From: an uncultured Rhodospirillales bacterium
GTDB taxonomy: Bacteria > Pseudomonadota > Alphaproteobacteria > Acetobacterales > Acetobacteraceae
Length of the DNA stretch: 60,821 nucleotides
Direction of reading: 5' to 3'
Assembly (NCBI GenBank): GCA_903873995.1
Contig: CAIQQQ010000142.1
Location: forward strand, 1 to 60,821
Shown here: piece after piece, positions 57,845 to 60,821 of the stretch
Position numbering within the stretch: the stretch's first letter is position 1
Layout of the letters: each line of letters begins with the position of its first letter
The notes under the pieces: model-generated
What the model was told of the DNA's origin: nothing
What the model saw: only the letters and a program-made list of their open reading frames with translations
The model's database searches: none
Translations under genes and position numbers: made by a program

Positions 57845-59347
57845 ATGAGAAAGATCTTGCTCCAACTCGGGACGGCTCTGATGTGCGCCCTGCCGGCCAC
57901 AGCCATGGCCCAATCCGCTCCGGTCAGAGACGCATTCTATTGGCTGGGCGAGATCAACAAGGCCAGCGCCGTCATGAACACCGAGGAGGGCCTGCTCGAC
58001 CCCGCCCTCACGCCCCATATCGCAGCCGGGCTGGCGGCCGTGCTCAAGGCAGGCGACCAGCCAGGCGGCAAGCGGCCTTCGCTCGTGATCACCTTCGAAC
58101 CGCTGCTGATCGAGGCCGCTGGGGTCGAAGCCACCCTGCTGCATGCTGGCCGCTCCAGCCAGGACATGCTGGCCACCGTGCGCAGCGCCATGATCCGCGA
58201 AGAGCTGCTGCGTCTCGCCGAGCAGCTTCGCAAGACGACCGCCACCCTCGTCCGCCTAGCTGAGACCCACCAAGGCACGATCGTGCCCAACTACACCAAC
58301 GGCGTCGCCGCCCAGCCCAACAGCTACGGCCATTATCTGCTCGGCCATGTCGCGGGCCTCGAGCGTGACGCCCAGCGCCTGCGGGAGCTCTATGCCCGTG
58401 TCGACCAGTCACCCATGGGCACCACGGTGCTGAACGGCACCAGCTGGCCGCTCAACCGCCCGCGGATGGCGGCCTATCTCGGCTTCCCCACCACCGTCGA
58501 CAACGCCTATGATGCCGCCCAGATCCTGGCCACCGAGCTCCCGGTGGAGGTCGGCACCGTGGCTGAGCAGATCGCGCTGCACACGGCCGCCTTCATCCAG
58601 GACGTGATGGTGCAATACGCCCAGCCGCGGCCCTGGATCCTGCTCAAGGAAGGCGACGGCAACACCTATGTCTCCAGCGCCATGCCGCAGAAGCGCAATC
58701 CCGGGCTGCTGAACAACGTGCGCGCCGAGGCCTCCAACGTCCTGACCCTCGGCATCGGCCGCGCCATCACGGCCCACAACATCCCGCCCGGTATGAGCGA
58801 TGCCAAGAACATCCGCGACAACGTCGCCGTGATCGCCGCCACCAGCCACATGCTGGCCGGCTGGGATCGCATCCTCAACGCGCTGGTGATCAGCCCCGAG
58901 CGCGCGCTGGAGGAGCTGAACAGCGACTGGACGGCCTCTCAGGAGGTCGCGGACGCGCTGATGCGGCAATACAAGCTGCCGTTCCGCGCCGGGCACCATT
59001 TCGCTTCCGAGGTTGTCGAGTTCGCGCGGCTTCACGACATCCGCCCGAGCGACTTCCCCTATGCCGACGCCCAGCGCATCTACGCTGAGACCCTGGCGGA
59101 GCTGAAGATGCCCTCTGGCACGCTGCCCTTGAGCGAGCCAGCGTTCCGCGCGGCGCTGGACCCGGTGGCGATCGTGCGCAACCGCGCCACCGCCGGCGGG
59201 CCGCAGCCGGCAGAAATGGCGCGCATGCTAGCGGCGGCGAAGCAGACCCTGGCTGCTCTGCAGATGTGGATCACGTCAGGACGAAGCCGCATTGACAACG
59301 CCTTGGCGTTGCTCGATGCGGACTTCGCCCGCCTGCTACACCCCTGA
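57845..59347 (+). CDS. Exported argininosuccinate-lyase-like protein of the fumarase/aspartase superfamily
   Basis: A 500-residue protein with a signal peptide (MRKILLQLGTALMCALPATA, cleaved after AMAQ). The mature chain has the superfamily layout. The signature loop is SSAMPQKRNPGLLNN, with Ser277/Ser278 as the candidate catalytic serine. The region that in argininosuccinate lyase reads YTHLQRAQP reads YTNGVAAQP here, with Asn152 in the place of the conserved His. This, plus export, argues against an ordinary arginine-pathway lyase. It may be a periplasmic lyase with altered chemistry, or a binding protein. ATG 57845 follows a CAGGGA and starts the signal peptide. Its end overlaps the convergent amidohydrolase. 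Confidence 0.85.
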   Translation: MRKILLQLGTALMCALPATAMAQSAPVRDAFYWLGEINKASAVMNTEEGLLDPALTPHIAAGLAAVLKAGDQPGGKRPSLVITFEPLLIEAAGVEATLLHAGRSSQDMLATVRSAMIREELLRLAEQLRKTTATLVRLAETHQGTIVPNYTNGVAAQPNSYGHYLLGHVAGLERDAQRLRELYARVDQSPMGTTVLNGTSWPLNRPRMAAYLGFPTTVDNAYDAAQILATELPVEVGTVAEQIALHTAAFIQDVMVQYAQPRPWILLKEGDGNTYVSSAMPQKRNPGLLNNVRAEASNVLTLGIGRAITAHNIPPGMSDAKNIRDNVAVIAATSHMLAGWDRILNALVISPERALEELNSDWTASQEVADALMRQYKLPFRAGHHFASEVVEFARLHDIRPSDFPYADAQRIYAETLAELKMPSGTLPLSEPAFRAALDPVAIVRNRATAGGPQPAEMARMLAAAKQTLAALQMWITSGRSRIDNALALLDADFARLLHP

Positions 59348-60768
59348 GGAGAGCGCCATTGCCGCGATCGGCGGCTCCACGCCCTCGGGGATCGGGCACA
59401 CATAGGGGTTGCCGTCCGTGCGCTCGGCGAGATCGGCCTTTGCCCGCGCGATCAGGGCAGGGTCCTCGATCGCGCTGACCGCGGTGGCCGCCATCACCTT
59501 GGCCACATGCACCATCGACTTATGCGCCGCCGGCATCTTGCCCTGCGCCGTGAGCTGCCAGGAATGGCCCGGCGTGCCGATCGCGTAAGTGGCGGCATGG
59601 GCCTGCACCGTGGGCACCACCCAGCTGACATCGCCAACATCGGTGGAGCCGATCATCTTCACGCCCTTTGCATCGAGCGGCACCAGCCCCTCATGCAGCG
59701 GCATGTCCGCCCGCGGCTTCACGCCCACGCGGCGATAGGAGTTGGCGATGTCCTCGGCGGACAGCGTCGCCTGGATCTTTTTAGCGAAATCGCGATCCGC
59801 CGCGTCCCATTCCGGTGTGCCGAGCCGTTCGAACGCCTCGCGCATCGAGGTCTCGAGCGGCGTGTTGGGCAGCAGGTTGGAGACGGCGCTCAGCACCTCG
59901 ATCTCCAGCCGCGTGCCGGTCATGAGCGCTGCGCCGCGCGCACAATCCTTCACCCGCTCCAGCAGGTCACGCATCTGAGGCAGGTCGGCAGCGCGCACCG
60001 AGTAGCGCACCCGGGCGCGGGACTGCACCACGTTGGGCGCGATGCCGCCTGATTCGATCATCGCGTAATGCACCCGCGCGTCGCTCGGCATGTGCTCGCG
60101 CAGATAGTTCACACCAACATTGGTGAGCTCCACCGCATCCAGCGCCGACCGCCCCAGATGCGGCGCGGCCGCGGCATGGCTCGCCCGGCCATGAACGTGA
60201 AGTCGATGCGCGTGTTGGCTAGAGACAGCGCCTCCGCCACCTCGAAGAACGCGTTGGGGTGCCAGGTGATCGCGATGTCCACATCCGCGAACGCGCCGGC
60301 GCGCACCATGAATGCCTTGGCTGCCCCGCCTTCCTCGGCCGGGCAGCCGTAATAGCGCACGCGGCCTGGCGTTCCTGTCGTCGCCAGCCAATCCTTCACA
60401 GCAGTTGCCGCCAGCATCGCCGCCGAGCCCAGCAGGTTATGGCCGCAGCCATGCCCGTTGTACTGCCCCGGGATTGGCCGATGCTCGGCCACCCCAGCCT
60501 CCTGGCTCAGGCCCGGCAGCGCGTCATACTCGCCCAGAATGGCGATCACCGGCCCGCCTTCGCCCGCTTCACCCATCAGCGCCGTGGGTATGCCCGCGAC
60601 GTTCTCGGTCACGCTAAAGCCCTGGCGCTGCAGCTCGGCCAGATGCTCGGCACACGAGCGGGTCTCGGTGTAGCAGGTCTCCGGCATGCCCCAGACCGTG
60701 TCCGACAATTCGATGAAGGCCTCGCGCTTGGCATCCACATGGGTCCAGATCTGTTCGCTGTTCTGCAT
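59336..60768 (-). pseudogene. M20-family amidohydrolase (AbgB-like), split by a frameshift
   Basis: Resembles the AbgB subunit of p-aminobenzoyl-glutamate hydrolase and related M20 amidohydrolases. The first part, from ATG 60768, has GEYDALPGLSQ, the metal-binding YNGHGCGHNLLGSAAM and CPAEEGGAAKAFM. It then reads RIDFTFMAGRAMP, while the expected HGRASHAAAAPHLGRSALD continues in another frame near 60190-60200. One missing base (TTCCATGG expected, TTCATGG found) restores the whole protein of about 477 residues, a normal family length. The second part has GSTDVGDVSWVVP and TPGHSWQLTAQGK. It is either a recent pseudogene or a sequencing error in one base. Its end overlaps the lyase-like gene by 12 bp. 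Confidence 0.88.
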
Positions 60769-60821
60769 GGTCAGGGGTCCTGGCTGGGTGTTCCGCAAAC
60801 AACTAGTGTCCCGCACCAGAA

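Follow-up and report, generated by a model that had tools for sequence, protein, structure and literature searches.

The window (the whole stretch of DNA analysed, 60,821 nucleotides) carries on its forward strand an open reading frame (57845-59347) that starts with ATG, is preceded by a ribosome-binding-like AGGGA and encodes a protein of 500 residues with the N-terminus MRKILLQLGTALMCALPATAMAQSAP. The protein matched the Pfam families Lyase_1 (PF00206, 95.5 bits) and ASL_C2 (PF14698, 33.6 bits), each above cut-off. The features discussed below are the following:

57845..59347, + strand: ArgH-like lyase, predicted to be exported, 500 aa, Lyase_1 + ASL_C2 (ORF, Pfam, orthologs)
57845..57910, + strand: Sec-type signal peptide, residues 1-22, with inferred AMA^Q cleavage (sequence; 74/77 orthologs by heuristic)
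58148..58165, + strand: C1 motif GRSSQD, residues 102-107 (alignment; GRSRND in ArgH and EDDS lyase)
58295..58309, + strand: C2 motif TNGVA, residues 151-155, with Asn152 for the THxQ histidine (alignment; 86/86)
58673..58702, + strand: SS loop SSAMPQKRNP, residues 277-286, with Ser277 (base by homology), Lys283 and Asn285 (invariant 86/86)
58775..58807, + strand: HNxxPGMxDxK, residues 311-321, in place of the arginine-side segment YxKDxQEDK of ArgH (alignment)

The best orthologs share 74-78% identity with the window protein, and purifying selection acts on the gene relative to its closest relatives (dN/dS ~0.17-0.33, with dN 0.18-0.25 and dS 0.59-1.44). A promoter scan found none. The AF2 monomer model (pLDDT 86; the TN and SS loops are of low confidence) had its best structural matches in EDDS lyase and ArgH structures (query TM ~0.73-0.83). 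The adjoining gene (59336-60816, minus strand) encodes an M20/AbgB-like amidohydrolase in two overlapping frames, with Peptidase_M20 in one and M20_dimer in the other, and we therefore place a frameshift near position 60180 (i.e., true decay or an assembly error). We rejected this M20 hydrolase as a partner, as it did not recur beside other copies of the lyase gene.

By inspection, the protein start MRKILLQLGTALMCALPATAMA^Q is a Sec-type signal peptide. A heuristic (hydrophobicity, start and AxA) detected a signal peptide in 74 of 77 orthologs, and two of the remaining three (L029 and L065) show one by eye, meaning that the signal peptide named in the original prediction is both present and conserved. 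Cysteine is absent from the mature chain in 83 of 86 sequences, compared with 1-8 cysteines in full-length cytoplasmic relatives, and this depletion fits periplasmic life. We infer that members of the window family are Sec-exported periplasmic proteins.

The original prediction also reported an asparagine where ArgH has a histidine, together with an intact SSxMPxKxNP loop. Both observations hold: the Asn152 codon (58298-58300) lies in the context YTNGVAAQP (YTHLQxAQP in ArgH), Asn152 is invariant in 86/86 aligned relatives, and the loop reads SSAMPQKRNP. Given this conservation in relatives and the dN/dS values above, chance or sequencing error is excluded for both Asn152 and the signal peptide. 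Calling this a lost conserved histidine was correct in that the histidine is absent but overstated, as the column varies among active members of the superfamily. Specifically, EDDS lyase, an active C-N lyase, has Gln159 there, at a distance of 4-6 Å to its substrate, and accepts Cys or Met in its place (PMC12363623); nitrosuccinate lyase CreD shows full activity with Leu170 in this column (PMC13411527); and XcbC1 of Xanthobacter has Tyr. The C2 histidine is therefore dispensable in the superfamily. Even within the source genome the column holds His (ArgH, PurB), Gln (AspA-like) or Asn (CMLE-like). The CMLE-like protein (L004, contig C263), whose SSTMPQKRNP loop is intact and whose C2 reads SN for TH, is a second Asn case within that genome.

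None of the 14 superfamily signature residues varies among the 86 sequences, in an alignment where only 89 of 470 positions are invariant (hypergeometric p ~3e-11), which argues against a dead enzyme. The superfamily SS-loop signature of GSSxxPxKxN type is present as VSSAMPQKRNP, i.e., with Val for the preceding Gly. Gln106 is invariant in the exported clade as well (86-sequence alignment); the family thus has Gln106 and Asn152 where EDDS lyase has Asn113 and Gln159, an amide swap that may have functional meaning. The C1 arginine (Arg112 of EDDS lyase) is Ser105 in the main subfamily, which is a substrate-contact change. On the amine side, the Asp and Tyr found in both ArgH and EDDS lyase are replaced by Gly287 and Met317, and the Gln and Lys of ArgH are absent, making arginine unlikely as a leaving group. 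In the segment of residues 311-321, H311, N312, G316, M317, D319 and K321 are kept in 86/86 sequences, and the ArgH Tyr, Gln and Lys are missing.

A Lyase_1 profile search of the source genome (4.1 Mb, 507 contigs) returned matches at five places, namely the window gene and the following:

contig C450: standard ArgH (THLQ) carrying MPGFTHLQTAQP, first ~220 residues, then contig end
contig C222: aspartase-like protein, C2 = TQ
contig C198: PurB, C2 = SH
contig C263: CMLE-like protein, C2 = SN

The C-terminal half of the C450 ArgH was not found in the source genome, which is most simply explained by an assembly gap. A second, standard argH is thus present, partial at the contig end, and the window gene is excluded as the only ArgH of its genome. 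On the argH equivalog model TIGR00838 the window protein scored 177.5 bits, below the curated cut-off of 279.5, and 26/26 aligned family members match that model only as relatives. In a tree of 52 proteins the exported proteins form one 100/100 clade and ArgH, including the source genome's own, forms another 100/100 clade (the place of EDDS lyase in this tree is unsure, with long branches). The ArgH combination of a THLQ histidine with YxKDxQEDK is missing: Asn152 and Met317 are found instead, and the Gln and Lys positions are variable and different. As the argH cut-off is failed, the arginine-side residues are absent and a separate THLQ ArgH exists in the genome, the comparisons place the window protein in a paralogous family that is not ArgH. 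The NCBI label "argininosuccinate lyase" on such orthologs accordingly misplaces them in arginine synthesis.

Across 84,980 species genomes we confirmed the family at 224 places and retained the 80 best (64-78% identity). These best 80 of 224 family members lie in Alpha- and Betaproteobacteria, with hosts that include Roseomonas, Bosea, Methylobacterium, Rhizobium, Pandoraea, Cupriavidus, Comamonas and Bordetella, among others. Occurrence is patchy, with 0/7 congeners, 17/300 genomes in the family, 5/399 in the phylum and 33/300 in the order of a betaproteobacterial-type genome (thresholds differ between these samples). In the 52-protein tree Pandoraea stands beside the window protein and Comamonas beside Rhodovarius, a placement that fits horizontal transfer.

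In a second tree, of 42 proteins, histidine gave way to asparagine only once, on the branch (99/94) from which the exported clade arises. The sister of the Asn clade consists of cytoplasmic proteins that carry THGV and GRSRQD and have no signal peptide, and every exported protein sits within the Asn clade. Six sampled Asn proteins, all in f252, a family with small genomes (L134, L135, L143, L144, L147 and L148), are cytoplasmic: they have TNGV, lack a signal peptide and contain 3-6 cysteines, and so offer a natural test of the cysteine depletion of exported proteins. From this distribution on the tree, Asn and export arose together (in this sampling) and export was lost later several times.

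Several individual copies stood apart. One protein without a signal peptide (L149, genome G1303) has TW in place of TN/TH, an exported ortholog (L088, contig C26 of G042) is broken by an in-frame stop and a frameshift, a 41%-identical relative (L118, contig C63 of G013) is in two pieces, and one Paracoccus plasmid copy is adjoined by an IS4 transposase.

Gene neighbourhoods differed between branches. Across 79 loci of the window subfamily we found no conserved neighbour, and even the commonest neighbour family occurred in at most 9% of them. TctC/Bug genes lay next to the lyase gene on its upstream side in 6/68 loci and on its downstream side in 3/69, which we did not count as an enrichment given the great abundance of Bug genes in these taxa. 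In f252 the lyase family was present in 42/67 genomes, with up to six matches per genome. Among the 30 f252 loci that were read (17 cytoplasmic and 13 exported copies), a gene for the C4-dicarboxylate carrier DcuC lay within 1.5 kb on the same strand in 14/17 cytoplasmic but 0/13 exported loci (Fisher p ~5e-6, which is nominal since the loci are related). The lyase-dcuC gaps were ~1-46 bp in the four loci inspected, often with a divergent LysR regulator. Pairs of lyase and dcuC with LysR genes were seen in L163-L168 and L184-L202, and a single genome (G1026) has two of them. Two exported proteins of a sister branch (L170, L171) have a Porin_4 gene within ~16 bp on the same strand and a divergent LysR gene, and cytoplasmic THGV members often adjoin a TctC/Bug receptor gene (L156, L157 and L160). 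The DcuC, porin and TctC/Bug contexts all point to small carboxylates. As the window subfamily is solitary, its C4 link is argued by analogy with more distant paralogs, and cytoplasmic and exported paralogs may have drifted in function. In an Acidovorax group (L051, L053, L068 and L078) a standard argH lies three genes from the exported paralog, probably by chance synteny.

Taking these observations together, we think it probable that the window protein is a periplasmic beta-eliminating lyase releasing fumarate from a substituted succinate; its activity, fumarate product and succinate-type substrate are what we infer from sequence. The protein would be Sec-exported to the periplasm and is predicted to form a homotetramer, as in all solved relatives, in which three subunits would contribute C1 (GRSSQD), C2 (TN) and the SS loop to each active site. 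Ser104, Thr151, Ser278, Lys283 and Asn285 would grip the substituted succinate and Ser277 would take its beta-proton, after which the leaving group (not arginine, and with no His general acid) would depart to give fumarate, with Asn152 and Gln106 lining the leaving-group side of the pocket. Fumarate or another C4 product could then be taken up via an ordinary C4-dicarboxylate transporter, and the cytoplasmic paralogs would serve the same function, each with its own DcuC carrier encoded alongside. Candidate substrates are aspartate derivatives and hydroxy- or thio-succinates. As a lead only, Advenella MIM_c16970, annotated as a putative argininosuccinate lyase, rose 6.4-fold on mercaptosuccinate (PMC5373536).

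If this is true, the superfamily, so far regarded as cytoplasmic, includes a branch that works in the periplasm and supplies the cell with C4 acids, and the protein would be a new lyase that needs neither a cofactor nor a His general acid for C-N, C-O or C-S chemistry. A broader proposal, which we put forward tentatively and hold to be somewhat doubtful, is that an exported branch on the ArgH/EDDS-lyase side does fumarate-releasing chemistry in the periplasm and that one family pairs a cytoplasmic enzyme plus DcuC with a carrier-free exported enzyme, thereby switching between substrate import and enzyme export. With both kinds of copy at hand, cytoplasmic plus DcuC and exported, this choice of compartment would be open to direct testing.

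Other readings have to be weighed against a fumarate-releasing lyase. The protein might be an active periplasmic enzyme of the superfamily with another reaction, such as elimination from longer or sulfonated acids (XcbC-like) or cycloisomerisation (CMLE-like). The XcbC model gave 176.5 bits, near the 177.5 of argH, XcbC1 of Xanthobacter likewise lacks the histidine, and SSQD in C1 resembles TTQD of the CMLE-like protein; we nevertheless regard this as unlikely, as the curated XcbC and CMLE cut-offs are far from reached, XcbC1, with its ASK loop and degraded C1, is unlike the window family, and the DcuC gene pairs favour C4-dicarboxylates. The original prediction had offered either another substrate or a non-catalytic role. 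A periplasmic protein with another substrate is supported by the signal peptide, the cysteine depletion, the separate clade, the arginine-side losses and the second ArgH. The non-catalytic role (i.e., solute binding or sensing by a protein derived from ArgH, much as delta-1 crystallin serves in lenses) does not fit the full invariance of the 14 signature residues (Ser277, Lys283 and Asn285 among them) across the 86-sequence alignment, nor the catalytic activity of close superfamily members that lack the histidine (PMC12363623, PMC13411527). Even with the changes to Asn152 and Ser105 and an export that is unusual for the ArgH-like fold counted in its favour, we judge it improbable.

That the protein is an ordinary argininosuccinate lyase with an incidental N-terminal hydrophobic stretch is very improbable, and on sequence grounds already refuted. 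The NCBI labels of orthologs and an ASL_C2 score above cut-off speak for it, against the failed argH cut-off, the separate clade, the lost arginine-side residues, the standard ArgH on C450 and the conserved signal peptide and cysteine loss.

We found no description of a periplasmic or secreted ArgH-like lyase in the open-access literature (subscription papers lay outside the search). The exported ArgH-like family is uncharacterised, and it is a novel variant within a known superfamily and not a new type of system. EDDS lyase is a cytoplasmic enzyme. The protein from Chelativorans sp. BNC1 (PDB 6G3D, 6RX8) is the best match of the window protein among solved structures in both sequence (E 1.4e-33) and fold (TM 0.83), and it shares a C2 without histidine (Gln159) and an SS loop of the form SSIMPQKxNP. 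However, the two are only 26% identical, and Arg112, Asn113, Gln159, Asp290 and Tyr320 of EDDS lyase correspond to Ser105, Gln106, Asn152, Gly287 and Met317, such that of its substrate-proximal set (R112, N113, Q159, N288, D290 and Y320) only N288 is kept (Asn285).

ArgH (TIGR00838) has the same Lyase_1 + ASL_C2 architecture, the SS loop and the GRS of C1, but the window protein is below its cut-off, has Asn for His, has lost the arginine-side Tyr, Gln and Lys, appears to be exported and forms a separate clade. XcbC1 (NF052535), an ArgH-like protein of bacterial coenzyme M synthesis, comes near in profile score and has its histidine replaced (Tyr), but it lacks a signal peptide, adjoins phosphosulfolactate synthase and has a degraded C1. 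We rejected a role in XcbC-type coenzyme M synthesis (176.5 bits against a cut-off of 575), treating the likeness as profile resemblance only; the phosphosulfolactate synthase family is absent among the tallied neighbour families shown for the window subfamily. Nitrosuccinate lyase CreD (NF052556) is likewise an active superfamily member without the histidine (Leu170), but is a biosynthetic enzyme on another branch, and this identity was rejected at 35.8 bits against a cut-off of 650.

Finally, an arrangement of the aspA-dcuA type occurs in E. coli and relatives. As in the lyase-dcuC pairs of the cytoplasmic paralogs, a superfamily lyase there lies beside a C4-dicarboxylate carrier. DcuA carries out aspartate/succinate antiport (PMC10634366). 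The paralogs differ in that their lyase is ArgH-like with TNGV and not an aspartase, their carrier is DcuC and not DcuA, and the pair is LysR-linked, whereas the window member is solitary and, as its signal peptide indicates, exported.
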